Source: a virus. Taken from it: a stretch of DNA of 20,429 nucleotides. A program made the translations under genes and the position numbers. The DNA is taken from positions 2,659 to 23,087 of the IMG/VR virus record IMGVR_UViG_3300030419_001110; one strand, 5' to 3'. Below, piece by piece: positions 4,430 to 20,429 of the stretch. The stretch's first letter is position 1; each line of letters starts with the position of its first letter. The notes beneath the pieces are model-generated. The model worked only from the letters and a program-made list of their open reading frames with translations, was not told the DNA's origin and did no database searches.

Positions 4430-4844
4430 CTATCATTTCCAATCTTTCACTATGGCGTCCGCCTTCAAATTCAGTTGTTAAAAACTTATCCACAATTTTT
4501 GTTGCTTGTTCTTCTCCAGTAAAATCTGCACCTAAACATAAGACATTAATATTACCGTGCTTTCTAGCAATTTCTGCTTCTTCAGGTGTTCTTGCAGGAA
4601 CAGCTTGAACGCCTTTGTGTCTGTTAGCAGCAATACTCACACCAAATCCTGAACCACATATTAAAATACCTTTTTTACTATTCATCAATTTAATTAAATC
4701 TTTAGCAACTTTAGGGTAATGACAAGATTTATTATCGTGAGTTCCAACATCTAATACATCATATTTTTTATACATCAAATATGCTCTTATTGCCTGTTTT
4801 AATTCATAACCACGATGGTCGCTACCAATTATTACGGTGGGCAT
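4413..4844 (-). CDS. rpiB: Ribose-5-phosphate isomerase B (RpiB/LacAB family)
   Basis: Predicted sugar-phosphate isomerase interconverting ribulose 5-phosphate and ribose 5-phosphate. The length, 143 aa, is close to E. coli RpiB (149 aa). Active-site positions are present: the D9-H10 pair in GSDHRG, the anion loop GILICGSGFG with catalytic C63, the SIAANR segment (70-75), H96 in ARKHGN, and the C-terminal EFEGGRHSERLE with R130 and R134. The enzyme therefore looks intact. It is inserted between gp15 and gp16, which are neighbours in T4, sharing one base with the gp15 stop (TAATG) and 17 bases with gp16. This makes it a likely auxiliary metabolic gene that could raise ribose 5-phosphate for nucleotide synthesis during infection. 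The related LacA/LacB sugar isomerases or a different aldose substrate cannot be excluded. Confidence 0.92.
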   Translation of the reverse strand: MPTVIIGSDHRGYELKQAIRAYLMYKKYDVLDVGTHDNKSCHYPKVAKDLIKLMNSKKGILICGSGFGVSIAANRHKGVQAVPARTPEEAEIARKHGNINVLCLGADFTGEEQATKIVDKFLTTEFEGGRHSERLEMIDEQNR

Positions 4845-6432: not shown

Positions 6433-7353
6433 CTATCCTATTTCAAAATGAGCAGGAGTTTCGTATGTTGTTCTAATTTCTTGTTCTAATTTTTCTTGTT
6501 CCGCAATTGCCGTAGAAAATAATTCTGGACCATTAAGAGTGACGCCCCCAAGCATAGCTGTGCCTGAAAACTTTGATAAGTTTTGACCCCATTGTTTTTT
6601 AATTAATGCTGTTGCATATCTTTTTAAAAATATATCATCATAGATATCCACAAACTTTGAAGGGTCTACTTTTCTAAAACATTCTATAATTAAATGTTCA
6701 TCAGCACTAATTGCTTCTTCCCAATCCATATCAATATACAATCTATTCATATGCTGATTAAATCTAAATGGTTTCTCTCCCACTAATATGTGGTCAAGAA
6801 AATCTAAATGTCGCATTGTCATTTCATAATGAACAATACTAGTTGATGAGAAATCATATAAATCATTTAATCGTAATTGATATTTAACATCAAATATATT
6901 TAAGTTTGCTCTATCAGAAAAAGGAAATATATTGACAATACTAATTACTGAATCAGGAACGGTTAAATAATTTTCTACTTCTTTCCATCCTGTTGTTGCA
7001 CCAGTTGAAGTTTCATCTAAAACCTTAAATTCAGTTTCTAATAATAAATCACCCTTTGTATCGCCTGTTGTTTGTGTGCCTTCTTCTAACTCGATATTAT
7101 CTTGAATAGACCCTCTTTCAGTTGCATAGTAAGTATTTGTATCAGTAGTAACCCTAGTTAAGTCATCTGCTGTTAATTTATACTTTAAATACATTCTTTC
7201 AACACCATCATAATGGTATTGAGCAAAATATTGTAATGCTTCGTCTATTCTATCTTCAACTTGGTCATCATCAACATTAATATCAATAACAGGCTTACCT
7301 AAAGACCTCAAACAATACGATTTTAATGTTGCTCTTGAATTTGGGACTGCCAT
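6433..7353 (-). CDS. 13: Neck protein gp13
   Basis: Neck/head-completion protein that binds the portal end of the packaged head together with gp14. At 306 aa it is close to T4 gp13 (309 aa). The N-terminus carries the segment LGKPVIDINVDDDQVEDRI (18-36) followed by DEALQY and QYHYDG, which is the typical opening of gp13 proteins in marine T4-like phages. The rest is mixed alpha/beta with no catalytic motif. It precedes gp14 by three bases. The 29-base gap upstream contains a GATAAATA element and an AAAGGAAA ribosome binding site, so a late promoter may start a gp13-gp17 transcript here. Confidence 0.92.
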   Translation of the reverse strand: MAVPNSRATLKSYCLRSLGKPVIDINVDDDQVEDRIDEALQYFAQYHYDGVERMYLKYKLTADDLTRVTTDTNTYYATERGSIQDNIELEEGTQTTGDTKGDLLLETEFKVLDETSTGATTGWKEVENYLTVPDSVISIVNIFPFSDRANLNIFDVKYQLRLNDLYDFSSTSIVHYEMTMRHLDFLDHILVGEKPFRFNQHMNRLYIDMDWEEAISADEHLIIECFRKVDPSKFVDIYDDIFLKRYATALIKKQWGQNLSKFSGTAMLGGVTLNGPELFSTAIAEQEKLEQEIRTTYETPAHFEIG

Positions 7354-7372
7354 ATTTTGTTTCCTTTAATAC

Positions 7373-7382: not shown

Positions 7383-9743
7383 TTATCCTAATGCGACTGC
7401 CTGTGCGATTGCGAAAGCGTTTGTTGCTTTAGTATCTAATTGTGTTTGAATATTACTTGATACATTATCTAAATATCCTGCTTCAGTTGAAGTAACCGCA
7501 CTTACTGATACATCGCCGTTAGCGTCTGATACTAATAATCTTGAAGCAGTTAAATTTTCCATTTTACTAAATGCAATAGCGGCACTTGAAGCCACACTTG
7601 CATTAACAACAGCATTCGCTGCTAATTCATCTGCCCCTACGGCATCATCTGCCAACATTGAATTTTCTACTGCACCTGCTTGAATTACTGCTGAACCTGT
7701 GACATTACCTGCACCTGTAAATGAAGCAGAGGTCCAAACAACATCTCCTGTCATACCTATTGTTCGACCAGTTGCTAATGCAGTTGCTGTATCAGCATTT
7801 CCTGTGACATCACCTGTGACATCACCTGTGACATCACCTTCTACATTTGCAACTAAAGTATCAACTGCATAACCTGTGCCACTAGTATTTACGGTTGTTG
7901 TTGGTGCTGCCTGATTTGATTTAAATAATTTCCATTTACCAGAATCAGAAGCATCCCTAAATAATCCTGAATATAAATCTTGTGAACCTGAAGTATCATA
8001 TAACCCATAAAACCCAATATCTACAGCGTCAGCAGAATTATTATTTGTTGCTAAGTGTAATAATGGATCTGCAACTTCAATAGTAGTTGAACTTACGGTT
8101 GTTGTTGTTCCACTAACGGTTAAATTTCCTGCGATGGTAACATTGTTAGGTAAACCAATTGTAAGTGTTCCTGAACTTTCTGATACTTCTATTTCATTAC
8201 TTGTTCCTGCAAAAGTCATTGTGCTACCTAAAGAAATAGCAGTAGTTGATGAACCATCCGAAAGTGTTATAGAAGAATTACTTAATTTTGAATTACCAAT
8301 AGAGCCTGCAAGTTTAGAAGCTGCAATACTTCCTGCTAACATTGTATTAGTAACCGAACCAGTATCTCCTGTGGTTACAACCGTACCAGTCACATTTGGT
8401 AAAGTAATTGTTCTATCTGCTGTTGGATCCGTAACCGTTAAAGTTGTTTCGTAAGCATCAGCTGTCGATCCTTCAAATATTATAGTGTTTCCTGCCATTA
8501 CTAAATTTGCACCTAAATCAATAGTTGCACCAGTAATTGTAGGACTTGTTAATGTTTTGTTTGTTAATGTATCAGTTGTTGCACGACCTACCAAAGTATC
8601 AGTAGCGTCTGGTATAGTAATTGTTCTATCTGCTGTTGGGTCAGTAACCGTTACCGTTGTTTCATAACTATTATCTGTAGCACCTTCAAATATAATTGTT
8701 GCATCCTCAATTAAATTTAAAGAAGTCCCTACATTTGGTCCTGTTAAAGTTTTATTTGTTAGTGTTTGTGAACCAGTTAAAGTTGCAACCGTAGAATCAA
8801 TAGCAAAGGTAACTGCATTACCAGAACCACTTGTATCAATACCAGTTCCGCCTGTAAATGTTAATGATTCAGAATCTAAATCAATTGATAAAGCACCACC
8901 ACTATCTCCTTGAAAATCTAAATCCTGTGCTGTAACCTGAGCGTCAACATAAGCTTTAATACTTTGTTGTGTTGCTAATTGAGTAGCAGAATTAGTTGCC
9001 ATATTATCTTCATCTAATATAGCACTTCCTGAAACGCCTGTGTTTAAAACTGGACTAGTTAAAGTTTTATTTGTTAAAGTATCAGTTGTAGCTTTACCAA
9101 CTAGCGTATCAGTTGCATTTGGTAAAGTAATCGTTCTATCAGCAGTTGGATCCGTAACCGTTAAAGTTGTTTCGTAAGCGTCATCCGTAGCACCTTCAAA
9201 TACAATTGTTGCATCCTCTATAAGATTTAATGATGTTCCTACACTTGGACTTGTTAAAGTTTTATTTGTAAGTGTTGCTGTTGTTGCTGAAATATAAGTA
9301 TCAATTTGTGAAGCATTAAGTTTCTTTTCTGTGCCACCGTCTGATACTATAAATTTATCTGTAGCAGCTAAAGTAATTCCTGTTCCATCAGCATATGAAT
9401 CAATATCTAATCCTAATTCTGCATTAACATAGGTTGATATTTGAGAAGCGGTTACATATTTTTCTGTGCCACCATCTGAAATAGCAAACTTATCAGTATC
9501 AGCAATTGTTGCACTTGACCCATCGGTCATTCCATCAATATTTAAAACTGCTTCTACATTACCAAATTCTAATGCACTTCCACCTGAATTAACTTTTAAT
9601 ACCTGACCTGCACTACCTATTGATAAGGAAGCACCAAGACCACCGTGTGTTAATCCTATCGTATCACCAGATTGAAATTCAGATAATCCTGTTGCGACAT
9701 TACTATCATTAAAGACTGCTCTGATTGGTGTTTTATTCGCCAT
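7383..9743 (-). CDS. Repeat-rich fibre-like structural protein
   Basis: 786-aa virion protein, probably a fibre or fibre-like appendage, rich in Thr, Ser, Asn, Ala and Gly and almost without Cys or Trp. It has no signal peptide or enzyme motif. It starts with MANKTPIRAVFNDSN and a GLGASLSIGSAGQVLKV segment common in marine phage fibres. The body holds three diverged copies of a module of about 50-60 residues built around TDPTADRTITLP, DTLVG and TLTNKTLTSP, a GDVTGDVTGDVTGN tract, and a C-terminal TEAGYLDNVSSNIQTQLDTK segment typical of tail fibre and neck fibre proteins. It occupies the place just before gp13 where T4 has the short tail fibre (gp12) and fibritin (wac) genes, so it may fill one of those roles. 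Exact role unassigned. An AAGGATAG site precedes the ATG. Confidence 0.8.
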   Translation of the reverse strand: MANKTPIRAVFNDSNVATGLSEFQSGDTIGLTHGGLGASLSIGSAGQVLKVNSGGSALEFGNVEAVLNIDGMTDGSSATIADTDKFAISDGGTEKYVTASQISTYVNAELGLDIDSYADGTGITLAATDKFIVSDGGTEKKLNASQIDTYISATTATLTNKTLTSPSVGTSLNLIEDATIVFEGATDDAYETTLTVTDPTADRTITLPNATDTLVGKATTDTLTNKTLTSPVLNTGVSGSAILDEDNMATNSATQLATQQSIKAYVDAQVTAQDLDFQGDSGGALSIDLDSESLTFTGGTGIDTSGSGNAVTFAIDSTVATLTGSQTLTNKTLTGPNVGTSLNLIEDATIIFEGATDNSYETTVTVTDPTADRTITIPDATDTLVGRATTDTLTNKTLTSPTITGATIDLGANLVMAGNTIIFEGSTADAYETTLTVTDPTADRTITLPNVTGTVVTTGDTGSVTNTMLAGSIAASKLAGSIGNSKLSNSSITLSDGSSTTAISLGSTMTFAGTSNEIEVSESSGTLTIGLPNNVTIAGNLTVSGTTTTVSSTTIEVADPLLHLATNNNSADAVDIGFYGLYDTSGSQDLYSGLFRDASDSGKWKLFKSNQAAPTTTVNTSGTGYAVDTLVANVEGDVTGDVTGDVTGNADTATALATGRTIGMTGDVVWTSASFTGAGNVTGSAVIQAGAVENSMLADDAVGADELAANAVVNASVASSAAIAFSKMENLTASRLLVSDANGDVSVSAVTSTEAGYLDNVSSNIQTQLDTKATNAFAIAQAVALG
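7801..7836. repeat. Three tandem 12-bp units inside the fibre gene
   Basis: The 12-base unit CCTGTGACATCA occurs three times head to tail with no mismatch, encoding repeated GDVT on the minus strand. The number of units is a multiple of three bases, so slippage would change fibre length without a frameshift. Confidence 0.85.
8398..8490. repeat. Fibre module repeat, copy A
   Basis: DNA encoding the TDPTADRTITLP module, highly similar to copies at 8611-8770 and 9121-9275, for instance in the shared strings GTAATTGTTCTATCTGCTGT and CCGTAACCGTTAAAGTTGTT. It codes about residues 418-449 of the fibre-like protein. Confidence 0.75.
8611..8770. repeat. Fibre module repeat, copy B
   Basis: Second copy of the fibre module, coding about residues 325-378. 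It includes both the TDPTADRTITIP part and the NLIEDATIIFEGATD part and ends in the TLTNKTLTGP linker. Differences from the other copies are mostly at third codon positions. Confidence 0.75.
9121..9275. repeat. Fibre module repeat, copy C
   Basis: Third copy of the fibre module, coding about residues 157-208, with the same order of NLIEDATIVFEGATD, TDPTADRTITLP and flanking TLTNKTLTSP linkers. Confidence 0.75.
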
Positions 9744-9753
9744 ATTCTATCCT

Positions 9754-11019
9754 TTAAAATTGAAAAATAGTTGTATCACTATCTGCAAGTGAAGAACCAT
9801 TTGCCAATGTAAATGTTTTTGTTCCTGTAAATGTTGTTCTATTATCAATCGTAGCATTAAATTCAAAGTCTGTATTTTTTGAACTTAAACCACCAGCAGC
9901 ACTATAAAATGGAACAACTCTTGCAACTTGACCAGAAGCACCAGAAGCACCAGTTGATACAACTGCCATTTCATTGTCACCTGCTTTTGAACCTGCAGGT
10001 AATGTTGCACCAGTAGCAGCAATCTCAATCGTTCCAGTACCATCAGAGGATATTGTTGCACCACCCAAATCTACCGTAGAACTTGCCAAGTAAATCTTTC
10101 TCCATCTTTTTGAAGATGTACCTAAATCATAAGTGTTATTTGTTGCTGGTATTATATGTTGGTCAACAGCACTTAAATCACTTGCAACTTCTCCAAAATC
10201 ATATGAGCCAGTTGTTGAATTATATTTTAATGCATAACCATTTGCTTGTCCAGATGTATCAACATCATCCATTTCTGAAATTCTAACAGAACCACCACCG
10301 CCTAATGATGATAATTGTTTTGAAACCGTATCTTTAAATTTAGCAAATTCTGCTTTCATTTTATCGAAAGAGTCAATTCTTTCTAATGTAGCAATTTTTT
10401 CTTTATCAAATTCAGTAGCAGTATTCATTTCAGAAATCTGCTTCTCAACTTGTTGCATTAATGGGGTTTCTTTTTCATTATCTTTTGGATTTAAAAAACC
10501 ATCCATAGTTTTATCAAAAGAAGTAAAAGAACTTTCTTCTTTCTTTTCTTCTACTTTCTTAACTTCTTCAGGTTCTAATAATAACTTTTTCTTTTCTTTT
10601 TTCTTTTCTTTTTGTAAATTAGAAAACAACTTTTCTAACTCACCTATTTTTACTTTATCTTTTTTAACTTTTGCTTTTAACTTTTTCTTTTCTTCTGATA
10701 TTGAAGCAAAAAAATCTACTAATGAAACTCCTAAATTTGGTGTTTCAACAATTACTTCACTATCCTTAGGAAGAACTTCAACTAGTTTTTTACCTAATCT
10801 TTGTTCTTGTATTAAACTTATTTCTTTTTCAATATCAGGATCAATATCTATAATAGGGTCACCATCTTTAATTGGATCCATTTTAGGAACAGGATCCTTT
10901 ACAACTTCTTCAATAGCAGGTAATGGTTTAGTTTCTTCTATAATATCATTTGATAAAAAAGAATCTAACCAATTACTATTTTTTTCTGAATCGATATATC
11001 GTTGTGTTGATTTTTTCAT
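9754..11019 (-). CDS. Structural protein: charged coiled-coil N-terminus with fibre-type C-terminus
   Basis: 421-aa protein with two clearly different halves. Residues 1-235 are strongly charged, low in aromatic residues and rich in Lys/Glu runs (for instance 109-165), with acidic DP-rich repeats at 42-64 and heptad-like helices around 185-237; this looks disordered to coiled coil. After a GGGG hinge (240-243), residues 245-421 are Gly/Ser/Thr-rich and contain the NNTYDLGTSSKRWRKIY segment (294-310) and an ISEMDDVDTSG segment typical of marine phage fibre or tail structural proteins. A role as a trimeric fibre or whisker-like structural protein is likely, but the T4 counterpart is unclear. 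It begins one base after the 110-aa gene stop and ends just before the next fibre gene. Confidence 0.72.
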   Translation of the reverse strand: MKKSTQRYIDSEKNSNWLDSFLSNDIIEETKPLPAIEEVVKDPVPKMDPIKDGDPIIDIDPDIEKEISLIQEQRLGKKLVEVLPKDSEVIVETPNLGVSLVDFFASISEEKKKLKAKVKKDKVKIGELEKLFSNLQKEKKKEKKKLLLEPEEVKKVEEKKEESSFTSFDKTMDGFLNPKDNEKETPLMQQVEKQISEMNTATEFDKEKIATLERIDSFDKMKAEFAKFKDTVSKQLSSLGGGGSVRISEMDDVDTSGQANGYALKYNSTTGSYDFGEVASDLSAVDQHIIPATNNTYDLGTSSKRWRKIYLASSTVDLGGATISSDGTGTIEIAATGATLPAGSKAGDNEMAVVSTGASGASGQVARVVPFYSAAGGLSSKNTDFEFNATIDNRTTFTGTKTFTLANGSSLADSDTTIFQF

Positions 11020-11020
11020 A

Positions 11021-11353
11021 CTATCTAGTCACGCTTGGTGTTACCGTTGCTCTACCTTCAATTCGTCTAGTTTTTAAACCAGCTGAATCAGTAGTCACAA
11101 AGTCCCACACATATCGCCCTTCATCAAGAGCTGCAGTTTGAACATCCGTTAGCTTAATTGTGCAAGTGCCGTCGGATGCACTTACCGTAGCAGTAGTGAA
11201 ATCTGTTTTTGTAACCGACAAATGATGTTTTCTCATACTCGCTGTTAGTGTTTCTGAACTTAAATCTACAACGGTACCAGTAGAATCTTTAATAGTTAAA
11301 GTTTCTGAAAAATCTGCATCCTGGTCAATAGTGATATTCTGTATTGTTGCCAT
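11021..11353 (-). CDS. Small beta-sandwich-like phage structural protein
   Basis: 110-aa protein with alternating hydrophobic/polar residues and many Thr/Ser/Val, predicted all-beta. It carries a SETLTASMRKHHLS segment and an ALDEGRYVWDFVTTDSAG segment, a pattern seen in small Ig-like or BppU-like baseplate/fibre accessory proteins of marine phages. No catalytic motif, signal peptide or membrane segment. It lies after a 46-base gap that contains an exact TATAAATA late promoter element and directly before the two fibre-like genes, so it is probably expressed with them as a virion protein. The family assignment rests on general appearance only. Confidence 0.6.
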   Translation of the reverse strand: MATIQNITIDQDADFSETLTIKDSTGTVVDLSSETLTASMRKHHLSVTKTDFTTATVSASDGTCTIKLTDVQTAALDEGRYVWDFVTTDSAGLKTRRIEGRATVTPSVTR

Positions 11354-11387: not shown

Positions 11388-11395
11388 TATTTATA
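11388..11395 (-). promoter_or_regulatory. T4-type late promoter -10 element before the fibre module
   Basis: The minus strand reads TATAAATA exactly in the 46-base gap between the oxygenase gene ending at 11400 and the 110-aa gene starting at 11353. A second near match, AATAAATA, follows closely at about 11372-11379. The placement divides the oxygenase block from the fibre genes and suggests an independent late start for the fibre and neck genes. Confidence 0.72.
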
Positions 11396-11399
11396 AACT

Positions 11400-11999
11400 T
11401 CAGGTCGTAAATTTCAAGTCAAAACTAATCATAATTCTATCATTATCAGAAAAACTTGGTTCAACAAAATGGTCTATAAATGCAGGCCAAAACATTAAAT
11501 CACACTCTTTAGGGATTATATGATGTAATTCACCTTCTATTCTAGTATGAAAATAACTAGCTATTGCGCTAGGTCTAGGATCCCTGAACACTATCTTGCC
11601 AGAATTTGGAGGAACTTGAAGATAATATGCACCAGATATGTCATATTCTCCGTGTTGATGTATCACATTAAAATCATTTTTTTTATTAACAGCTGCCCAC
11701 ATTTGACTAATTCGCATATGCTTAACAAATGGAAATATCGTTTTACTGCAATCCCATATTTTTGCACACAATTCTTTTGTTGCTGGATCCTTAAATAAAT
11801 CGGTTCGACTTTGCCAACCGCCTCTATTTGATTTTCTTATTTTATTTTCTTTATCTTTTTCTGCTTCAGAAATAATAAATTGTATTAAATCTTCGTTGTA
11901 TGATACTTTTCTTTCTTGCACTTTCCATTCTTCTATATTTGCAGACCAAAATGGAGTAGTCCATTTATTTTCTCTAGTTATAGTAGTTTTATGGGACAT
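11400..11999 (-). CDS. 2OG-Fe(II) oxygenase-like protein, HxH type
   Basis: 199-aa protein resembling the TIGR02466/PF13759 group of putative 2-oxoglutarate and Fe(II)-dependent oxygenases, which form a double-stranded beta-helix. Seen: H114-Q-H116 in VIHQHGEYDISGAYYLQVP, the GKIVFRDPRP strand (134-143), H177 in IDHFVEP as the distal metal His, and R188 in NDRIMISFD as the likely 2OG carboxylate anchor. The second ligand position is His rather than the Asp of classical HxD enzymes. Substrate unknown. It is the last gene of the oxygenase block and overlaps the ferredoxin gene stop by 11 bases. Family assignment is strong; enzymatic activity is inferred. Confidence 0.85.
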   Translation of the reverse strand: MSHKTTITRENKWTTPFWSANIEEWKVQERKVSYNEDLIQFIISEAEKDKENKIRKSNRGGWQSRTDLFKDPATKELCAKIWDCSKTIFPFVKHMRISQMWAAVNKKNDFNVIHQHGEYDISGAYYLQVPPNSGKIVFRDPRPSAIASYFHTRIEGELHHIIPKECDLMFWPAFIDHFVEPSFSDNDRIMISFDLKFTT

Positions 12000-12321
12000 A
12001 GACTTTTAATCCATTATGTTTTTGAGTCAATTCTATTTGACAAGCCAATCTACTAAATTTTTCATCAAAATTATGTTCGTATTCTAACAAAGATAATTCT
12101 GCTGTGTCATCGCTTGCAGGACCTATTTTATCAATCCATTCAGGTAAAACATGGATATGACAAGTTGCACAAGAACATCCACCACCACATTCGGCTTCAA
12201 TACCTCTCACATACTTATCTTTAGAAAAGAATCTACTTGCTTCCATTAATGTAGTTCCAACAGGAACTGATATTGTTTCTTCTTCTCCTGTATCCTTTTG
12301 AACAAAGGTTACATCAATCAC
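11989..12321 (-). CDS. [2Fe-2S] ferredoxin, adrenodoxin/ISC type
   Basis: 110-aa electron carrier. The cluster-binding Cys pattern is complete: C45-x5-C51-x2-C54 in AECGGGCSCATCH, and C94 in RLACQI; an extra C49 lies inside the loop. This spacing and the TCHIHV segment are typical of adrenodoxin-like and bacterial ISC ferredoxins rather than plant-type photosynthetic ones. The start is GTG at 12321, supported by a good AGGAG ribosome binding site 7 bases upstream and a GTGA overlap with the preceding oxygenase stop. It overlaps the next oxygenase by 11 bases, so it is made together with them. Most 2OG oxygenases need no ferredoxin, so its partner is unclear: a host or phage oxygenase, Fe-S assembly, or reductive repair of the Fe centre are possible. 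Confidence 0.93.
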   Translation of the reverse strand: MIDVTFVQKDTGEEETISVPVGTTLMEASRFFSKDKYVRGIEAECGGGCSCATCHIHVLPEWIDKIGPASDDTAELSLLEYEHNFDEKFSRLACQIELTQKHNGLKVYVP

Positions 12322-13046
12322 AATTGTTCTCCTATAGCTTTTAGTGTATCTCTAGCTTTTGGTCCATCAGAAAAATTACAACTTACTGATACTCTTTCGG
12401 TATCTGCTTTAAATGGATATACTTGATGAGATAATGCAGCTGGGAAAAAATAAATATCTCTTACTTTAGGTGTTCGTATAAATCCACCTGCAGAATAAGG
12501 CATACCTACATTACCAAATTGAAATTCAATACGACCAGCACTAGGTGTATTACTTTTACTAGAATGCTCACTTGTTTTATTTTCTTCTTCAATTTCTTTT
12601 GGCACTCTTAAATATGTCACACAAGATATTTCACCTGAATGATTATGAGAAGGATTCCATTCTCCAGCTTTCATATAATTAACCCATAGGGGTCTTTGTA
12701 AAATTATTTCTTCAGGTTTTCTAATACCCGCTTTCTTTATCTTACCAACCTGATTTGCCAGTTCAGTATATTTTGAAGCTAACCAAGTTAATTCTTCAAC
12801 TATAATCTTATCTTCATCTTTAGTAAAAATCCCTTCATAACTATATTCTTCTGATAAACAACCTGCCAATCTTTGTCTATAATCGTTTGTTTGTTTATTA
12901 AAAGACCCAATATTAGGATGTGTTCCATCTCTTAAAGAATCTGCTCTACTTAATAACAGGTTGTGCAATTCTTCTGATATTGTGCTATGAACAACAATAG
13001 GACCAAAAGGATTAAACCATTTTATATCTCTTCCAATTAAACTCAT
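12318..13046 (-). CDS. 2OG-Fe(II) oxygenase-like protein, HxH type
   Basis: 242-aa member of the TIGR02466-like group. Motifs seen: H134-N-H136 in WNPSHNHSGEISCVTYLRVP, a GRIEFQFG strand (171-178), H207 in ALSHQVYPF and R218 in TERVSVSCNFSD. An N-terminal region of about 115 residues is predicted helical and may carry substrate specificity. A low-complexity polar loop (155-168) interrupts the core between the first motif and the next strand. It overlaps the neighbouring upstream gene by 4 bases (ATGA) and the ferredoxin by 4 bases (GTGA). Substrate unknown. Confidence 0.83.
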   Translation of the reverse strand: MSLIGRDIKWFNPFGPIVVHSTISEELHNLLLSRADSLRDGTHPNIGSFNKQTNDYRQRLAGCLSEEYSYEGIFTKDEDKIIVEELTWLASKYTELANQVGKIKKAGIRKPEEIILQRPLWVNYMKAGEWNPSHNHSGEISCVTYLRVPKEIEEENKTSEHSSKSNTPSAGRIEFQFGNVGMPYSAGGFIRTPKVRDIYFFPAALSHQVYPFKADTERVSVSCNFSDGPKARDTLKAIGEQL

Positions 13047-13774
13047 TTTTTATCTCCAAAATGTTTTCCACCTTGTTTATATTCACCATGGAATTTCATT
13101 TCTGCTTGTTTCAATTTTTTAAGAGCGTCTGGATCTTTTGCTGTATGAGGAAAACCAAGACCTGGTCGACAATCAAACTTAGCGTCTTTGAATGGACCGT
13201 TTCTATCACAATAATGAAAGAATACTTGCGATTGCATAATACCTTTAAACTCATCTCTCCAATGGTCTACTTCACAACCACGATAGATAATAGCGTCACC
13301 TGGTTCCATATTATACCCCCTATCATATTCAGGATCACCACCATATCGTTGACCGTTAGCAGTATTATTTACCCATAGTTGCCAATTGTAATCTGATTTC
13401 TTAAAGGCGTCTAAATTAGAATAATCATAACCTAAACACATAGTTGCTGATATTTCACAAGCAGGTCTATCTGTATGATGTTTTAATATATCACCTTGTT
13501 TATATACTCTATAAAAAGTATATGTAGGCCATAACTCGACACCTGTTAATTCTTCCATCTTCGGCCATGTATATTCAAATATAGATTCCATCAAATGGTC
13601 ACCGTGAATAGAATGTGTATGTGGTATTTGACCTGTAGCACCTTCTGGTTGAAAATTATGTCTTGCTTGATGTAATGTATATGTTAATGCTATTTTTGCT
13701 AATTCAGGACTGATAAAATTCTTTACAAGTAAATATCTGTCCTTTTCAAATTGTTCTATTGTTTCTTTACTCAT
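13043..13774 (-). CDS. 2OG-Fe(II) oxygenase-like protein, HxD type
   Basis: 243-aa protein with a phytanoyl-CoA or prolyl-hydroxylase-like layout. Seen: an N-terminal helix with YLLVKNFISPELA (14-26), usual at the start of such enzymes; H100-T-D102 in KHHTDRPACEIS as the first two metal ligands; MEPGDAIIYRG (156-166) as the strand before the distal ligand; and H171 in VDHWRDEF. The usual Arg or Lys 2OG anchor about ten residues later is not obvious, with K177 or the QSQVFFHY stretch as candidates. The C-terminal 45 residues are Lys/Gly-rich and probably flexible. It overlaps its upstream neighbour by 8 bases and its downstream one by 4. Substrate unknown. Confidence 0.82.
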   Translation of the reverse strand: MSKETIEQFEKDRYLLVKNFISPELAKIALTYTLHQARHNFQPEGATGQIPHTHSIHGDHLMESIFEYTWPKMEELTGVELWPTYTFYRVYKQGDILKHHTDRPACEISATMCLGYDYSNLDAFKKSDYNWQLWVNNTANGQRYGGDPEYDRGYNMEPGDAIIYRGCEVDHWRDEFKGIMQSQVFFHYCDRNGPFKDAKFDCRPGLGFPHTAKDPDALKKLKQAEMKFHGEYKQGGKHFGDKK

Positions 13775-14333
13775 CTGTTTTCCTAAATCCTAGCCATCCT
13801 GTTATTATCATTTTATCTTCTGTTTGACTTATAACTCCTCTATGTGTAAAAGGAAAATCTGTTGGCCATATTAAAGTTAATCCTTTTTTACATTCCGAGG
13901 ACCAATTTAAATATTCAAAATGTGTTCCTGCATTTTTTGTATCAGTTAAATAAGTCATCCATACTAACAATCTGTGACCGTCCCTTATACTCATTCGTTC
14001 ACTATGTTGTTTATAATACCCTTGTTTAGGTCTATAATATTGTATATTAAATCCTTCAGCGTGTCCAAATTCTTCGTGTAATGAAAGAATAGGATATTTT
14101 CTCATATAATTATCTATTATATCGTGCAACTTACCAAAATATTTAGGCAATTTTATCTTTTCATTAGTTTTAAAGCCTATATCTAAAGATTCTTTAGCTC
14201 TTGCATTTGTTAAACCTACCTCTCCAGACCAGCCTGGAATAATTCTTTTCTGTTCCTTTCTATAAAGGTCAAGACATTCCTGAACAGCTTCCTCGCTAGT
14301 ATATTCGGCGTGTATGAACTCTGGTGTTTTCAT
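13767..14333 (-). CDS. 2OG-Fe(II) oxygenase-like protein with HxE motif (prolyl-4-hydroxylase-like)
   Basis: 188-aa protein of the P4Hc-like fold. The core reads YYRPKQGYYKQHSERMS: a strand with two Tyr, then H110-S-E112 where these enzymes usually have HxD, so the acidic ligand is Glu. The VWMTYLTDTKNAGTHFEY strand (124-141) is the usual YLND-G-T-F/Y segment, H164 in FTHRGV is the distal metal ligand, and K174 in the DKMIITGW strand is the likely 2OG anchor. I choose ATG 14333, with a GGA site seven bases upstream, over the in-frame TTG at 14345. The gene starts inside the 39-aa microprotein frame. An HxE triad is known from a few enzymes such as AsnO-type Asn hydroxylases. Confidence 0.83.
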   Translation of the reverse strand: MKTPEFIHAEYTSEEAVQECLDLYRKEQKRIIPGWSGEVGLTNARAKESLDIGFKTNEKIKLPKYFGKLHDIIDNYMRKYPILSLHEEFGHAEGFNIQYYRPKQGYYKQHSERMSIRDGHRLLVWMTYLTDTKNAGTHFEYLNWSSECKKGLTLIWPTDFPFTHRGVISQTEDKMIITGWLGFRKTDE

Positions 14334-14415
14334 TTCTTTTTCCAAACCAATAACCTATACTAAAGGTTACTGCCATTAAAGTTATAATTGCTAACATATG
14401 CCAAACTATAAACAT
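14296..14415 (-). CDS. 39-aa single-span membrane microprotein
   Basis: A short frame not explained by its neighbours: ATG at 14415, stop TAG at 14298-14296. It has an ideal AGGAGATA ribosome binding site directly upstream and starts 8 bases after the stop of the preceding oxygenase. The product is hydrophobic from residue 2 to 24 (FIVWHMLAIITLMAVTFSIG is the core), followed by a basic tail with K26, R27, R32, R36 and R37, which predicts a single membrane helix with a cytoplasmic C-terminus. Its 3' end overlaps the following oxygenase by about 38 bases in another frame, and that gene's start depends on its coding sequence. Function unknown; it could anchor a partner at the membrane. Confidence 0.68.
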   Translation of the reverse strand: MFIVWHMLAIITLMAVTFSIGYWFGKRNENTRVHTRRIY

Positions 14416-14423
14416 ATTATCTC

Positions 14424-15332
14424 CTATCTAAAAGGTTTACCTAAACTCCAAACAACAAGTGAATATCTTGTGCCTTCGGTGACTGGTGTAACCTGATGGT
14501 GTATAAATGAGGGGAATATTATCATTGAACCACGAGGTCTAATTTCTTGACAAGTCTTAAATCTACCTCTACCAGCGTGAGGACCAAAATCAAATTTTAA
14601 ATTACCTCCTTTATATTCACTAGGTTCTGTTAAATTTAATGTCATACTAATTTTACGAACTTTACCCCACATCATTCTATTGTCAGTCCATCCTGACGCC
14701 AACATTGTTCTTCCATCATATGCTTTTCTTTTTCTAATTGGAGCATCCTCTTCTAATACTTCATATTTGGGAACCTTAAAACCATTAAAATCTTCATACA
14801 CCCAATCAGAACCATCTTTATTAGGAATTAATTTACATTTTTTCCATACATCATCAACCATCCAAGCAGGTTTATACATATTAGGCCAATCTGAACTTCC
14901 GTCAGCGTGCCAACCATAAAATTGTCCTGGTTGATATTTTGTAAATTGACAAGATTCACTAAAATCCCATTCATAATTCCAACCTGCTGCTTGATTTGCT
15001 TGATGAATAAGTGGATGAATTAAATCATATATCCACTTATCACTTAACCAGGCAATAGAACTATCTCTTACATAACCATCACTCTCTTTAATACCTTTTC
15101 TATGTAATGCTTCTTTAGTTATAGAATGTTGGGCTAAGTCACCAGCTGCCTTTTTACCATCAGCACTTAAACCACCCCTTTCTCTACCATCAGCAGTTTG
15201 TGCAGAAATACCAGCTTCACCATATGCTGAAGATTTTTTAACTAATTCAGTCATTCCTGCTTCTAATATTTTTTGACAATCTTTAGGTTTAATAACACTT
15301 CTAAACCAATAATAATTATTTGCTATTTGCAT
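14424..15332 (-). CDS. 2OG-Fe(II) oxygenase-like protein, HxD type with long insertion
   Basis: 302-aa enzyme similar to PKHD-type/PiuC-like hydroxylases. Seen: YQPGQFYGWHADGS with H142-A-D144, then a long insertion (about 146-223, rich in Trp/Lys and containing PNKDGSDWVYEDFNG) before the next core strand RKISMTLNLTEPSEYKGGNL (226-245), IIFPSFIHHQVTPV with distal H279, and R289 in TRYSLVVW as 2OG anchor. The canonical spacing between the HxD loop and the following strand is much shorter, so the insertion is a special lid or substrate domain. N-terminal 100 residues resemble the helical start of the family. It shares one base (TAATG) with the preceding unknown gene. Substrate unknown. Confidence 0.87.
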   Translation of the reverse strand: MQIANNYYWFRSVIKPKDCQKILEAGMTELVKKSSAYGEAGISAQTADGRERGGLSADGKKAAGDLAQHSITKEALHRKGIKESDGYVRDSSIAWLSDKWIYDLIHPLIHQANQAAGWNYEWDFSESCQFTKYQPGQFYGWHADGSSDWPNMYKPAWMVDDVWKKCKLIPNKDGSDWVYEDFNGFKVPKYEVLEEDAPIRKRKAYDGRTMLASGWTDNRMMWGKVRKISMTLNLTEPSEYKGGNLKFDFGPHAGRGRFKTCQEIRPRGSMIIFPSFIHHQVTPVTEGTRYSLVVWSLGKPFR

Positions 15333-16117
15333 TATTTACCTCCATGTGGATAGGGGCATTTTGCCTGTTGCTCTTTTACTGACCTTTGTCTATTAAATTG
15401 ATATCCGCTTGTAAATTTTGTCCTTACATTAAAATAACTTGTCCACCTTTTTGTTATTAATTCTTTATTTTCTTCCTTAACTTCGTGTGAAAAGTTTTCT
15501 CTACGATAAGGAATATATTGTGCTAACGGCGTTCCTCTTTGTATTAAAAACTCACCTTTCTTTTTAAACATCATTTGTTGATTAATCTCGTGGTGTATAT
15601 CTGTCCATATCACACCAGGCGCAACTTCAAAATCAGGATTAAAATGATAAAACATAGGAAATTGAAACATACTAACTCCTGGAGGTGTTTTAATATACCA
15701 AGGACAATCAGGTTTTAAAATTAAACTAGGTTGAGCGTGCTTTGGAAGGAATTCACCTAACTGATTTTTTGGATGTTGACCAAACTTAAACCGCCCTTCT
15801 GGTGTATTCCATTCAAACGAACCATCATCAAATATCTTTACTCTTAAATCACACCACAATGGCACAACAAATCCCATACTCATAAATTCGGGAATAGCAG
15901 GACATCTTTTGACCGTTCCTTTATTAGATACATTTTTTCTAAAATGGTCTAATTTTTCAACCTGCTTACTATTCCATTTTGGCATATTCTCATACCATTT
16001 TGGAATAAAATGTCCTGCAGTTTGAACTGGCATTACATCTTTCAATCCAGTAATACTGCACCAAATTTCTATAATATCTTCTTTTTTAGGACCAAATTTA
16101 AATATTTTTTTAAGCAT
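15332..16117 (-). CDS. Conserved-looking phage protein of unknown function
   Basis: 261-aa protein that I do not recognise with certainty. It is rich in Trp, Pro, Phe and Lys. Noticeable segments: WCSITGLKDVMPV (19-31), HFIPKWYENMPKW (36-48), VVPLWCDLRVKIFDDGSFEW (84-103), TPPGVSMFQFPMFYHF (144-159), GVIWTDIHHEINQQMMF (168-184) and a final RGTPLAQYIPYRRE (194-207). The paired PPG...FP...H and GTP-AQ-IP pattern suggests a beta-barrel (cupin-like) fold, and it is reminiscent of DUF6065-type proteins, but this is tentative. No HxD/HxE triad is evident, although H174-H175 and several other His are present. It lies between two oxygenase genes, sharing a base with one and three bases from the other, so it is probably linked to their function. 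Confidence 0.75.
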   Translation of the reverse strand: MLKKIFKFGPKKEDIIEIWCSITGLKDVMPVQTAGHFIPKWYENMPKWNSKQVEKLDHFRKNVSNKGTVKRCPAIPEFMSMGFVVPLWCDLRVKIFDDGSFEWNTPEGRFKFGQHPKNQLGEFLPKHAQPSLILKPDCPWYIKTPPGVSMFQFPMFYHFNPDFEVAPGVIWTDIHHEINQQMMFKKKGEFLIQRGTPLAQYIPYRRENFSHEVKEENKELITKRWTSYFNVRTKFTSGYQFNRQRSVKEQQAKCPYPHGGK

Positions 16118-16120
16118 ATT

Positions 16121-16654
16121 CTAAAGTTTTCTATCTAAATGTAAATTAAATGACACAGCAATTCTTTCGTCATCTGACCTATTAGGTTTTACACCGTGTC
16201 TTAAATAACCATCAAATAAAACTACCGTATTCTTTTGAGGTGTCATACTTTTTTTCAATTGTGGCCAATATAAATCACCACTACCTTTAGGTGCATTTAT
16301 ATAATACACTCCACTCCATAATGCAGGCCAATGGTCGTGGACAATAGCATAGTCATTTTTCTTATAAATCATACCCCACATATCTTTCACTAATAATGCC
16401 ACCTTACAATTATAATATTTTTGAGATATATGATTTGCAATATCTATAACTTTATTTGCTAATCTATCAAAACCAGGTTTATCTGCCATTTGCCAGTCTG
16501 TCATATATGCTTTTACATTTGTTTTGTGGTCGTGTTTATCGCCACATTTTTTAATTTCTTCCACAAGAATATCATCCATCATTGGGTCATCAAGAGCCGC
16601 AGTAAAAATACTTTGTGGTTTTTCTGTTTTAAAATTATGTTGATATATTTCCAT
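16121..16654 (-). CDS. 2OG-Fe(II) oxygenase-like protein, HxH type
   Basis: 177-aa compact member of the TIGR02466-like group. Seen: MIYKKNDYAIVHDHWPALWS with H106-D-H108, then GVYYINAPKGSGDLYW (115-130) as the following strands, H153 in YLRHGVKPN and R164 in DERIAVSFN. The DPR segment of its relatives is shortened to WPQ, so it is a reduced version of the fold. N-terminal 90 residues are mostly helical. Begins on the same base as the stop of the gene before it (TAATG) and ends four bases before the next gene. Substrate unknown. Confidence 0.85.
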   Translation of the reverse strand: MEIYQHNFKTEKPQSIFTAALDDPMMDDILVEEIKKCGDKHDHKTNVKAYMTDWQMADKPGFDRLANKVIDIANHISQKYYNCKVALLVKDMWGMIYKKNDYAIVHDHWPALWSGVYYINAPKGSGDLYWPQLKKSMTPQKNTVVLFDGYLRHGVKPNRSDDERIAVSFNLHLDRKL

Positions 16655-17403
16655 TATTCATTCTCCAAATCATCTATAAAGACACCGCCACCAGAGTCGT
16701 GTCCTTTTCTTTGTTTTATTTTTTTCCCAGGTTTATATCTTTGACCAAAATTAAATGAGATTGAATATCTCCATCCCCTTTTATCTTCCTCATCAAATTC
16801 TTTATTCATATTTGGCTCTACTTCGTGCATTAACCAAGATGGGAAAATAAGTAATCTTCCTGGAACAGGTTCATAATACACCTCTCTCCAAGTATGTGGT
16901 GACCTTTTTTCTGAATAGTTTGGCATAATCATATGTGCTTCAGCCCTAGGGTCTGTAAACCATATACGGCCACTTTCTTTAGGTGCATAGATATAATATA
17001 CCCCACTCCACATTCCTCCTGGATGCATATGATTTCTATTATGGGAATATCTTTTGTTTATATTTGCCCACATATTATCACACCAAGGTTCAGTATCAGG
17101 ATGATAAGTTTCCTTCATCATAACCTCTTGAACTTTATTAAATAATATCTTTGTAAAATGATTGTATTCTGTTCTATGGTGCATATCAACAGCACTATGC
17201 CAACCTAAAGAATTTGACCGAATAATTCCTTTAGTATCTCTCTCATACCATCTATCAATATCACTCATCAATTTACTATTAATATTTTCTGCATTAGGTA
17301 AATCTGTAAACCATATACGAGTAGGAAACCAATTTTCTACAAAAAGATTATCTTTATTGCCCTCATTTACTGATTGTTTCTTAATATTTTTTATTTTAGG
17401 CAT
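16654..17403 (-). CDS. 2OG-Fe(II) oxygenase-like protein, HxH type (TIGR02466-like)
   Basis: 249-aa protein that best matches the TIGR02466 pattern. Seen: N-terminal FVENWFPTRIWFTDLPNAEN (21-40), the usual start of the family; NRNHMHPGGMWSGVYYIYAP with H125-M-H127; GRIWFTDPRAE (145-155); LLIFPSWLMHEVEPN with H193; and R212 in WRYSISFNFG. I choose ATG 17403, whose GGA site lies seven bases upstream inside the preceding gene, over the in-frame TTG at 17436. The start overlaps that gene's stop by 8 bases. The last 25 residues are basic and Gly-rich. Substrate unknown. Confidence 0.9.
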   Translation of the reverse strand: MPKIKNIKKQSVNEGNKDNLFVENWFPTRIWFTDLPNAENINSKLMSDIDRWYERDTKGIIRSNSLGWHSAVDMHHRTEYNHFTKILFNKVQEVMMKETYHPDTEPWCDNMWANINKRYSHNRNHMHPGGMWSGVYYIYAPKESGRIWFTDPRAEAHMIMPNYSEKRSPHTWREVYYEPVPGRLLIFPSWLMHEVEPNMNKEFDEEDKRGWRYSISFNFGQRYKPGKKIKQRKGHDSGGGVFIDDLENE

Positions 17404-18052
17404 AAGTAGGTCCGTGCAACCATCCAACAATCGCAACTCTTTTACCAGATTTAACTTTAGTAATTCTATGTGCTAAAAATGATGGGAATATTATACAAGT
17501 TCCTTCATTTCTAAAATCTTCCTTTTTAACTTCTGTTCCTAAAAACTCTAAATCACCACCTTCATATTCATCAGGTTTAGATAGTTGAATTGTAAAACTT
17601 AACTTACGATTAGGCACATTCTTACCTATATCAATATGCCAATCATAATGACAACCCTTACCATATTCCATTATCATTGGAGCGTCATAATTCATAAAGC
17701 CATCTACTTTAAATTTAAATCTTGCTTCATTAGCCTGTCTTAACAACTCTAATATTCTTGTATGAGGCCAACCATCCTCACTCATCATTAATCCTTGTTG
17801 TTTAACATTTCTTAATTTTTTATTAATTTGTCCACTATCTACTTCACCTTGAATCCACAATGGACTTTCTGTAGCATTTCTAACCGCCTCACATTGAGTT
17901 GGACTTAAAAATGTTGTATGAACTATTGATGTAATTAAATCGTTTGTCGGTACTTGATTGGGGTCTACTGCAGGAGGTGCTTCTGATTGGTCTTTGAAGC
18001 CTGCATTTATTGATTGTGCCTCTTCGGCAACATTTATTATTTCTTCGGTCAT
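17396..18052 (-). CDS. 2OG-Fe(II) oxygenase-like protein, HxD type (PKHD/PiuC-like)
   Basis: 218-aa enzyme with the clearest classical motifs of the block: YGKGCHYDWHIDIG with H139-I-D141, the strand KLSFTIQLSKPDEYEGGDLE (150-169), IIFPSFLAHRITKV with distal H195, and R205 in KRVAIVGW as 2OG anchor. The DEYEGGDLEF segment is diagnostic of PiuC-like and prolyl-4-hydroxylase-like enzymes. Length is close to the PKHD family (about 225 aa). The first 40 residues are polar and likely flexible. A strong GGAG ribosome binding site precedes the ATG, following the repeated 39-bp leader element. Substrate unknown. Confidence 0.92.
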   Translation of the reverse strand: MTEEIINVAEEAQSINAGFKDQSEAPPAVDPNQVPTNDLITSIVHTTFLSPTQCEAVRNATESPLWIQGEVDSGQINKKLRNVKQQGLMMSEDGWPHTRILELLRQANEARFKFKVDGFMNYDAPMIMEYGKGCHYDWHIDIGKNVPNRKLSFTIQLSKPDEYEGGDLEFLGTEVKKEDFRNEGTCIIFPSFLAHRITKVKSGKRVAIVGWLHGPTYA

Positions 18053-18062
18053 AATATCTCCT

Positions 18063-18101
18063 CTACTGGTATATCCTCATTAGATATATTTACATAGTAA
18101 T
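18063..18101 (-). repeat. 39-bp repeated leader element, copy 1
   Basis: One of two copies, 37 of 39 bases identical, the other at 19605-19643. On the minus strand it starts ATTACTATGTAAATATATC and ends ATGAGGATATACCAGTAG, next to the GGAG ribosome binding site of the oxygenase gene starting at 18052. It contains TGTAAATA, one mismatch from the late promoter consensus. It can also be read as YYVNISNEDIPV in one frame, but that frame has no start codon. Confidence 0.85.
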
Positions 18102-18108
18102 ACTATAA

Positions 18109-18909
18109 TTACTTTTTCTTACTATTACTTTTTCTTCCTTTCTTCGTTTTTTTATTTGCAGTTATATTTTCTGCTGTTGCAGATTTATCTCTGCCTCCAT
18201 AAACTCTTGGGTCACTAAAAGTTGTTCTTATTGTTCTTTTCTGTCCACCACCTAATCCTGGAGGACTTCTATCAACACCGTGAAATCCTTTTCCAAAATT
18301 ATTAGTTTGATCCATAATTAATTCCCACTTTTGTCTTGCTCGTTCTTTTTTTGCTTCATTAGATTTTAATACCATATCAGGTGTAGGTTCTTTTAATTTA
18401 AGAGTATCGGGATTGAAATTCTTTTTTCCTTTAAAGGCATTACCTGTATCTGCGGCCTGCAACCACTTTCTTACACTCATACTTTTATCTGGCACATATT
18501 CTTGTGACCATCCGCCAGTAATAGGACTTTGTTTCATTCTTCCTTTACCTGCCATCTTTTTAGGTTTTGTCCACCACCATCTTGAAAATAATAAATGACG
18601 ACCTTTATCCATCATACGGTGTAACCAGTCTTTACCATAATGTTTCCAATTTTGAAAATCACTTGCTATTTGTTTCTCTAATTCCATTCTTTGATGATGT
18701 TGTTGCCATCTAAATTCTCTTTGTTCTACACTTTCACCATATTTCTTTTCAAATTCTCTTAACTCTTCCCAAGATATTTCACCTTTAGCAAACTTTTCTT
18801 TCTTTTGTTGATATGCAACTAAATTATGAACCTCCCAATTAAAGCTATCAGGCATTTTAGTTTTCCATTGTAGTGGAATCCAATTTTTAAAATAATTTTT
18901 AAAAGACAT
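18109..18909 (-). CDS. Trp- and Lys-rich protein of unknown function
   Basis: 266-aa protein that I do not recognise. It is very basic and rich in Trp, especially a FQNWKHYGKDWLHRMMDKG stretch (85-103) followed by SRWWWTKPKKM (109-119). The N-terminal 80 residues are helical and charged, with a SWEELREFEKKYGESVEQRE helix (46-65). The C-terminus from about 185 is Gly/Lys/Ser-rich and ends in KKTKKGRKSNSKKK, suggesting a flexible tail that could bind nucleic acid, membrane or acidic proteins. No signal peptide, metal motif or membrane span is seen. It lies one base after an oxygenase gene and 56 bases before another. It may be a structural or accessory protein; function open. Confidence 0.75.
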   Translation of the reverse strand: MSFKNYFKNWIPLQWKTKMPDSFNWEVHNLVAYQQKKEKFAKGEISWEELREFEKKYGESVEQREFRWQQHHQRMELEKQIASDFQNWKHYGKDWLHRMMDKGRHLLFSRWWWTKPKKMAGKGRMKQSPITGGWSQEYVPDKSMSVRKWLQAADTGNAFKGKKNFNPDTLKLKEPTPDMVLKSNEAKKERARQKWELIMDQTNNFGKGFHGVDRSPPGLGGGQKRTIRTTFSDPRVYGGRDKSATAENITANKKTKKGRKSNSKKK

Positions 18910-18910
18910 T

Positions 18911-19594
18911 TTACTTATTTTCCTTATCCTCTATATTTTGAACAGCGTCTAAAGCTGTAGTCATATTAAAATGAACAAACCTAAACTTCTCTCTACCCTT
19001 ATGATGTTGATAACTATGTGGCATAAATGAATTAAAGAAAACAAAATCACCAGGTTTTACTGAATAGTAAATTTTATTTGAACAATGATTTAACTTTTTT
19101 GGTTCTTTTTTAATTCTTTCTTCATCTATTCTTAAATCACTCATCATTTTACCAGGTCTAGGATCGTGAAACCAAGGTTTAGATGTTTTTGAACTACATT
19201 TTAAAAAATAAAAACCAGACATTTGATTTCTACTATGGATATGTATATCGTGGAAACCACCTTCTTCAGGAAATTCTTGCACCCAACATTCTTGTAATAA
19301 AGGTCTAAATCCTTTTAATTCATATCCTTGCCAATGTAATATATTCCACATTTGTTGCATAACATATTCACAAAAAGGTTGCCACTCTTTATATTGCCAT
19401 AGATTTTCGCTATGATATGAATTAGGCAATTGTTCTATTTCTTTTTTCTTTAACTTTTCTTTATGATGTTTTTGTAATCGGTCGATTATTTTATCTGACT
19501 CTTTATCCAAATACATAAATTCGTCATTGTGTCCTCTATATATGGGACAAGTAAAAATTTCTTCTTTGGATAATTGTAAAGGGGTTGTAACCAT
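18911..19594 (-). CDS. 2OG-Fe(II) oxygenase-like protein, HxH type (TIGR02466-like)
   Basis: 227-aa protein, first of the oxygenase block. Seen: GGFHDIHIHSRNQMSGFYFL with H118-I-H120 (H115 also nearby), PWFHDPRPGK (140-149), VKPGDFVFFNSFMPHSYQ with distal H193, and R205 in KFRFVHFNM as 2OG anchor. The N-terminal 100 residues are helical and Lys/His-rich. A good AGGAG ribosome binding site lies before the ATG, directly after the repeated 39-bp leader element. It ends one base before the Trp/Lys-rich gene. Substrate unknown. Confidence 0.87.
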   Translation of the reverse strand: MVTTPLQLSKEEIFTCPIYRGHNDEFMYLDKESDKIIDRLQKHHKEKLKKKEIEQLPNSYHSENLWQYKEWQPFCEYVMQQMWNILHWQGYELKGFRPLLQECWVQEFPEEGGFHDIHIHSRNQMSGFYFLKCSSKTSKPWFHDPRPGKMMSDLRIDEERIKKEPKKLNHCSNKIYYSVKPGDFVFFNSFMPHSYQHHKGREKFRFVHFNMTTALDAVQNIEDKENK

Positions 19595-19604
19595 TATATT
19601 TCTC

Positions 19605-19643
19605 CTACTGGTATATCCTCATTGGATACATTTACATAGTAAT
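19605..19643 (-). repeat. 39-bp repeated leader element, copy 2
   Basis: Second copy of the element at 18063-18101, differing at two positions. On the minus strand it begins ATTACTATGTAAATGTATCC and ends ATGAGGATATACCAGTAG, then runs straight into the AGGAG ribosome binding site of the oxygenase starting at 19594. In the same frame as the other copy it reads YYVNVSNEDIPVGEI followed by a stop, again without an upstream start codon. Confidence 0.85.
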
Positions 19644-19676: not shown

Positions 19677-20429
19677 TTACGACCAACTTAAAGAAACTCC
19701 ATGAATTTTTACAGAATTATTAGCTAATGCAAGTTTCCATCGCATATTTGTTCCACTTGGCTGCCCACTAATTGTCGCTATTCCGGTTAATATCCTTTGA
19801 CCAGAACTTCCAGTCACATAACCACTATCTGCTAAAGTGACATTTGTAAAATTGGAACCACCATCTCTACTAACACTTGCTATAACATCGGTATTTAAAG
19901 TAGGTGTATCTACATTTTCCTCAAAAACTACTATTCTAGCAGTAGATGGAGTGCTTGAAGCCGTAAAGGCATTTGAAACTATATTTGTTGTTGTTGTGGT
20001 TGCAGAAGCACAACCTGTTAATAATACATAACCATCTTCTCCAGGAGAACCATCCGTAGAGGGTCTTGTTGGTGAAAATGATCCTTCATTTGTGCTTGAA
20101 ACATAAGCAGGATCCGTAACCCCACCACCTTGACTTCCTGAACCTTCTTCTGTTGAACCTGATGTGACTTGTGGATGTCCATAATAAGATGAACCGCCTC
20201 CACCAAATCTAGCGTCTGATGGACCAGCAGGATTTCGACTACCTCCACCGCCACCGCCATAATATCCTTCACCTCCAGCACCTGCATTTGGATCTTGACC
20301 ACTTGCAGCTGTACCGCCTGCTAAGAACCCACCTGGTTCTCCATCAGGTGGAGGGTTAACACTTGAACCCGCTTGACCACCTTGTTCTTGGTCTCCGCCA
20401 CCACCAGCAGAACCACTATTATTATTCGA
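19677..20429 (-). CDS. Glycine-rich tail fibre/adhesin-like protein, 3' part (cut by window edge)
   Basis: The last 250 codons of a larger gene whose 5' end lies outside the window. The frame is open from the right edge to the TAA at 19679-19677. The N-terminal half of the visible part is Gly-rich with tracts such as SAGGGGDQEQGGQAG, GEGYYGGGGGGS and RFGGGGSSYYGHP, similar to Gly-rich domains near the tips of phage fibres. The C-terminal about 105 residues form a beta-rich domain with IVVFEENVD, TDVIASVSRDGGSNFTNVTL, GYVTGSSGQRILTG, SGQPSGTNMRWKL and a final IHGVSLSW, a recurrent C-terminal domain of marine phage tail fibre proteins. It is therefore likely a receptor-contacting fibre protein. 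It stands immediately upstream of the oxygenase block. Confidence 0.82.
   Translation of the reverse strand, partial: SNNNSGSAGGGGDQEQGGQAGSSVNPPPDGEPGGFLAGGTAASGQDPNAGAGGEGYYGGGGGGSRNPAGPSDARFGGGGSSYYGHPQVTSGSTEEGSGSQGGGVTDPAYVSSTNEGSFSPTRPSTDGSPGEDGYVLLTGCASATTTTTNIVSNAFTASSTPSTARIVVFEENVDTPTLNTDVIASVSRDGGSNFTNVTLADSGYVTGSSGQRILTGIATISGQPSGTNMRWKLALANNSVKIHGVSLSWS

Follow-up and report, generated by a model that had tools for sequence, protein, structure and literature searches.

Few unexplained genes of marine phages are as common as those for Fe(II)/2-oxoglutarate (2OG) oxygenases, and the phage literature cited here reports no substrate for these enzymes. Phage S-SCSM1 carries 24 such genes (PMC9602691), short cassettes containing them have been described in HTVC023P-type podoviruses, in which a phage 'ferrochelatase' gene always adjoins a 2OG oxygenase gene (PMC9599517), and the protein families PHROG 61 and PHROG 2954 are enriched together seasonally (PMC11561400). 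Here we describe a block of 12 genes at positions 11400-19594, on the minus strand, of a 20,429-nucleotide window (the whole stretch of DNA that was analysed), which corresponds to bases 2659-23087 of the 23,087-base IMG/VR virus record IMGVR_UViG_3300030419_001110. The block comprises nine Fe(II)/2OG oxygenase-like genes (A to I), a [2Fe-2S] ferredoxin gene (Fd), a distant DUF6065 relative (Y) and a gene for a protein named X. With several oxygenases, including G and the PKHD type, next to fibre and neck genes, it is almost certainly a multi-oxygenase island of the kind that recurs in marine T4-like phages. The window itself derives from a T4-like marine phage, since its terminase shares 66% identity with that of Pelagibacter phage HTVC008M and ~63% with those of cyanophages; we infer a Pelagibacter-like host.

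The oxygenase set is inherited as a unit. The independent 54-kb IMG/VR contig 3300025137_000048 (hereafter L010) contains all 12 block genes in identical order with similar flanks, and because the block recurs there gene for gene, an assembly artefact can be rejected. Amino-acid identity between the window and L010 is 56-86% within the block (A, 61%; X, 70%; B, 74%; C, 66%; D, 64%; E, 68%; F, 56%; G, 86%; H, 66%; Fd, 72-73%; I, 56%), 41-55% for gp13-gp15 and 67-73% for gp17-gp18. The nine oxygenases are under purifying selection, with ratios of nonsynonymous to synonymous substitution rates (dN/dS) of 0.17-0.35 relative to L010. The synonymous divergence of the block is mostly below that of the neck and tail genes, a pattern that either exchange of the block or constraint could produce. 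The conserved gene order, the dN/dS values and the shared leaders described below show that the block behaves as a module, as had been suggested from the window alone, and a 12-gene set intact across two diverged phages constitutes a defined unit for testing.

The block is divided into two sub-blocks, each headed by the same hairpin leader, an arrangement newly described here. The leader is a 35-nt element, CTATGTAAAT-N8-TGAG-N7-CAGTAG, situated just upstream of A (leader 1, 19605-19639, minus strand) and of B (leader 2, 18063-18097, minus strand); in both cases CTATGTAAATR, a 7-bp hairpin and CAGTAG precede the ribosome-binding site. L010 has the element in the same two places (about 5813-5847 and 7309-7343). 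All four copies share a fold with an outer helix of 4 bp and an inner helix of 7 bp, their folding energies being near those of shuffled sequences, and two pairs of the inner helix are changed on both sides (compensatory), with pairing retained throughout, in a comparison of only four sequences. A covariance model run on related phage DNA (1.28 Mb) gave no further convincing copy, the leader had no match in Rfam, and the pattern on a third contig (L223) proved to be a chance match within a tail-sheath-like gene. Possible roles of the leader are that of a promoter combined with a hairpin or operator and that of a site controlling translation. The exact T4 late promoter-like sequence TATAAATA occurs at only two coding-strand sites of the window (2352-2359 and 11388-11395, minus strand), in the gaps before gp18 and the fibre-assembly gene, and both are likely late promoters. 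As these sites lie elsewhere and the block has leaders of its own, it looks separately controlled.

Iteration of hidden Markov models (HMMs) places the nine oxygenases in four groups: A, C, D, H and I (T-type), B and E (P-type), F, and G. Seven of them pass a Pfam gathering cut-off, that of PF13759 in the case of the T-type and of PF13640 in the case of the P-type genes. The T-type genes, which share an HxH motif, are A (18911-19594; PF13759 3.9e-12; H118, H193, R205), C (16654-17436, with an alternative start possible at ATG 17403; H136, H204, R223), D (16121-16654; H106, H153, R164), H (12318-13046; PF13759 1.3e-15; H134, H207, R218) and I (11400-11999; PF13759 9.1e-17; H114, H177, R188). 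A TIGR02466 scan (curated cut-off 62.5 bits), which covered A, C, D and H of this group, placed C (130.6 bits) and D (65.2) above the cut-off and A (46.1) and H (37.1) below it. The PKHD-type genes B (17396-18052; PF13640 1.2e-15; H139, D141, H195, R205) and E (14424-15332; PF13640 7.7e-13; H142, D144, H279, R289) bear an HxD motif, as does G (13043-13774; H100, D102, H171), while F (13767-14345; H114, E116, H168, K178) has HxE and is recognised only by PHROG 61 (8.2e-23). The metal triads are intact in all nine genes and are the same in the L010 orthologues. Where a 2OG anchor would be expected, ~10 positions past the last His, eight have a basic residue (R or K); in G it is not assignable. 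The double-stranded beta-helix is predicted for G by AlphaFold2 modelling and structure search and for the other eight by profile homology, with B (PKHD hydroxylase 3dkq, 9.8e-9), C (PDB 3bvc and 2rg4) and E (PKHD hydroxylases 3dkq and 9ghl, by profile) reaching solved structures by sequence.

The earlier note on this DNA had counted nine oxygenase-like genes of at least three subtypes among 13 genes with overlaps throughout. All nine stand, with their coordinates and minus-strand orientation, as do the HxH, HxD and HxE subtypes (five, three and one genes, respectively). The total, however, is 12 genes, and only seven of the 11 junctions overlap; two are spaced by 1-3 bp and two leave longer gaps, one of 56 bp (18053-18108) and one of 78 bp (14346-14423). 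The note had also argued against simple recent tandem duplication, and this is indeed excluded because the four sequence groups are too diverged: the best long match inside the block is ~29% (C and I), and B and E share 39% over 76 residues. In a 178-sequence tree A, C, D, H and I are each sister to their own L010 orthologue, next to genes of other phages, and do not pair with one another. The nearest isolate gene to I is the one adjoining the halogenase gene of HTVC008M. A defence island was considered and rejected, PADLOC having given matches only to generic '2OG, CRISPR-associated' models.

With nine oxygenases in a single block, the island stands at the upper end of a known type rather than being the exceptional set envisaged at first. 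Window-derived HMMs detected 19 oxygenase genes in HTVC008M, 13 in S-SM1, 12 each in S-RSM4 and S-RIM44, 11 in Mosig and four in HTVC023P, with at most eight lying within 8.2 kb among these six isolates. S-CREM1 has ten, and an unrelated IMG/VR virus represented by L250, L251 and L253 (99.8% identical to one another) has eight in an unbroken row next to a Gly-rich gene. The islands of S-RSM4 and S-SM1 come close to that of the window, as they contain eight to nine oxygenase-like genes, including homologues of E, F and G, together with an Fe-S protein and adjoining tail-fibre genes. They differ from it in the 4Fe-4S type of the Fe-S partner, in their T-type members and in lacking X, and several of their members are labelled ferrochelatase or DNA endonuclease. 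The S-RSM4 island lies directly between a tail fibre gene and gp13; eight of its genes match the window-derived HMMs, and the ninth is annotated as DNA endonuclease V and combines an oxygenase-like HxD...H...R pattern with weak similarity to PF13640 (0.015). The S-SM1 island resembles it, but does not adjoin gp13. Phage genes labelled DNA endonuclease V (PHROG 274; L128:12219-12698, L126:13249-13737, L009:22696-23208) resemble small 2OG oxygenases, with this HxD...H...R pattern and a weak match to PF13640; the one scanned in Pfam gave no endonuclease V family match, and gene D of the window matches PHROG 274 at 1e-7.

The Pelagibacter phages HTVC008M and Mosig likewise carry G, E (in HTVC008M also F) and T-type oxygenases next to gp13, but their islands consist of five to six genes without a ferredoxin; that of HTVC008M is on the strand opposite to the fibres and that of Mosig includes bilin-reductase/haem-oxygenase genes. 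In the HTVC023P-type cassette G also adjoins 2OG oxygenases, in the order T-P-T-G, and its T genes fall into groups with the window's C and A, although it has only three to five genes in a podovirus background and the authors take G for a ferrochelatase (PMC9599517). S-SCSM1 has the same Pfam mix and oxygenase runs among fibre genes (PMC9602691), but its runs are dispersed, with up to four genes in the genome part examined. A 'GDP-fucose protein O-fucosyltransferase' gene of this phage stands between PKHD-type and G-like oxygenases (L221:42204-44621), a hint of protein modification.

Gene G matches no Pfam family and falls into PHROG 2954, labelled 'ferrochelatase', at 1e-44. Searches of Pfam and NCBIfam with E values up to 1 gave no ferrochelatase family for it. 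An AlphaFold2 model built from 44 window and IMG/VR sequences, in all of which H100, D102 and H171 are invariant, had a mean predicted local distance difference test (pLDDT) score of 91.3. The top 50 Foldseek matches of this model were all 2OG oxygenases or close kin, the first being a bacterial prolyl-4-hydroxylase (P4H; 4j25, 7.6e-11), and VIA gave Z values of 17.5 for SnoN, 16.8 for PHD2 and 16.7 for bacterial P4H. We therefore reject the ferrochelatase label and newly reassign G, and with it PHROG 2954, as a predicted prolyl-hydroxylase-fold 2OG oxygenase. On this reassignment the co-occurrences reported in PMC9599517 and PMC11561400 are pairs of two oxygenases, and haem or iron readings of them lose their ground. 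Of the 87 G genes whose upstream sequence was long enough (E served as the query that retrieved some of these loci), 79 have a PKHD- or F-type oxygenase at most three genes away, and 85 have some other oxygenase. In ORF248 of S-SCSM1, G (residues 22-177) is naturally fused to a PKHD/F-type domain (267-452). Outside phages, the cyanobacterium Brasilonema sp. CT11 has a G-family oxygenase (L134:7971-8642) between non-ribosomal peptide synthetase (NRPS) and polyketide synthase (PKS) genes, a natural-product tailoring context. In soil Verrucomicrobia/Chthoniobacterales a DUF6065 gene stands directly ahead of a G homologue (L158:1061-2558, L160:6939-8609, L161:6271-7779), an arrangement reminiscent of Y and G in the window.

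Fd (11989-12321) is a plant/adrenodoxin-type [2Fe-2S] ferredoxin (PF00111, 38.5 bits against a cut-off of 21), ISC/adrenodoxin-like with a weak fdx_isc match. On the IMG/VR contig L227 a relative of it (2491-2826) and a relative of gene H (6654-7370; 55% identity) are 4 kb apart. The Fe-S protein of the S-RSM4 island has two Cys-rich 4Fe-4S-like motifs; proteins with QueG/NuoI-like 4Fe-4S Cys motifs within the S-RSM4 and S-SM1 islands (L128:9941-10642, L126:15317-16018) are perhaps counterparts of the ferredoxin. Y (15332-16117; phrog_7084 5.6e-51) has no direct Pfam match to DUF6065 (PF19541), but reaches it with a profile-profile probability of 95.9 over 129 columns. A first scan with Y as sole query gave no matches, and its AlphaFold2 model (pLDDT 55) was too poor for use. 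Y was rejected as a tenth oxygenase, as a conserved metal triad is absent in 14 sequences. X (18109-18909) is a basic protein with no Pfam match and a weak similarity to PHROG 24494 'tail fiber chaperone' (0.0017); beyond L010 no relative was found in the viral contigs searched.

Based on these observations, we tentatively suggest that the island is made during infection, perhaps late, and that, before virions are assembled, its enzymes would oxidise side chains in proteins of the phage itself, namely its tail fibres or adhesins, for the most part by hydroxylation. All nine enzymes would use O2 and 2OG and hold Fe(II) in their HxD/E/H...H triads, but each would have a site of its own to recognise. 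Electrons from the ferredoxin would keep the iron ferrous, and X and Y would be accessory proteins. We consider this mechanism as a whole to be possible rather than probable. PHD2 and P4H hydroxylate prolines in proteins. Islands adjoin tail-fibre genes in HTVC008M, Mosig, S-SM1, S-RSM4, S-RIM44, HTVC023P and S-SCSM1, that is, in both myo- and podovirus-type phages, and such a position speaks weakly for proteins of the fibres or adhesins as the substrate. There is also a tendency for multi-oxygenase blocks to occur close to glycine-rich structural genes, an association newly reported here: in the six isolate genomes 12 of the 16 Gly-rich structural genes are within five genes of oxygenases (shift-permutation p 0.003), and in a separate set, with near-identical contigs counted once, they adjoin two of six distinct multi-oxygenase loci versus none of 52 single-oxygenase loci. 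Among the non-structural proteins identified in S-SCSM1 virions, the published description lists no oxygenase (PMC9602691), as would be expected of enzymes acting in the cell, although 13 virion proteins are of unknown function. Taken together, fibre position, Gly-rich association, virion proteome and prolyl-hydroxylase-like folds lead us to favour, with low confidence, protein hydroxylation of fibres or adhesins.

Several observations weigh against this proposal. The Gly-rich association comes from few, related phage genomes and a chosen threshold, and inside the short IMG/VR loci the neighbourhood signal was not significant. Homologues also occur away from fibres, such as an E-G pair among head/replication-type genes in L011-L021, many S-SCSM1 oxygenases among replication genes and the G homologue inside the Brasilonema NRPS/PKS cluster, and five of the enzymes are HxH rather than classical HxD/E. 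A more far-reaching version, in which nine site-specific oxygenases and a dedicated ferredoxin, expressed from paired leaders, would decorate receptor-binding proteins rich in glycine and thereby adjust stability or the recognition of hosts, is in our opinion quite improbable.

The block might instead be a hot spot that has gathered independent oxygenase genes with separate targets and no joint function, which we take as the null hypothesis. Its members do group with genes from different phages, copy number and composition differ strongly among isolates, and other genes swap in and out at comparable sites. Against this, L010 keeps the 12-gene order though its neck proteins are only 41-55% identical, the two leaders are shared, G is closely accompanied by PKHD/F-type genes and a natural G-PKHD fusion exists; we regard such an assemblage as somewhat unlikely. 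Alternatively, the infected cell may make a product other than a protein, such as a small molecule or short peptide (or a lipid or glycan of the envelope), on which the enzymes act one after another. The Brasilonema context of a G homologue makes small-molecule or peptidyl substrates possible, and the DUF6065-G pairs in Verrucomicrobia chromosomes, as well as flavin halogenases (HTVC008M, S-RIM44) or bilin reductase/haem oxygenase genes (Mosig) in comparable islands, point the same way. No scaffold-making enzyme (NRPS, PKS or precursor of a ribosomally synthesised and post-translationally modified peptide) was recognised in the window, however, and the islands remain next to fibre genes, which makes tailoring of this type unlikely.

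For cyanophages it has been proposed that the phage draws on 2OG and in this way manipulates the metabolism of its host (PMC3037559), and oxygenases are indeed scattered through phage genomes. As one enzyme would suffice for such a drain, it leaves nine diverged active sites under purifying selection, and their conserved gene order, unexplained, and we consider it decidedly unlikely. AlkB/TET-like hydroxylation or repair of nucleic acids is very improbable: although some homologues lie among replication genes and DNA repair was suggested earlier, none of the nine has an AlkB-type (PF13532) or TET/JBP match at E up to 1, and the island sits in the tail region.

On the minus strand the genes of the window are arranged in the order: fibre, oxygenase block, fibre-assembly gene, two fibres, gp13, gp14, gp15, rpiB, gp16, gp17 and gp18. 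Fibre genes thus lie on both sides of the block, as the earlier note had stated, and the flanks in L010 are similar. On the gp13 side these are a tail-fibre assembly gene (11021-11353; phrog_3304 7.6e-20) and two tail-fibre genes (9754-11019 and 7383-9743; phrog_7121, phrog_38058), all on the minus strand. The gene rpiB (ribose-5-phosphate isomerase B; 4413-4844), a counterpart of which was not found in L010, lies between gp15 and gp16. The opposite flank (19677-20429, minus strand), cut by the contig end, encodes a structural or fibre-like protein of glycine-rich composition that has three tandem homologues in L010.

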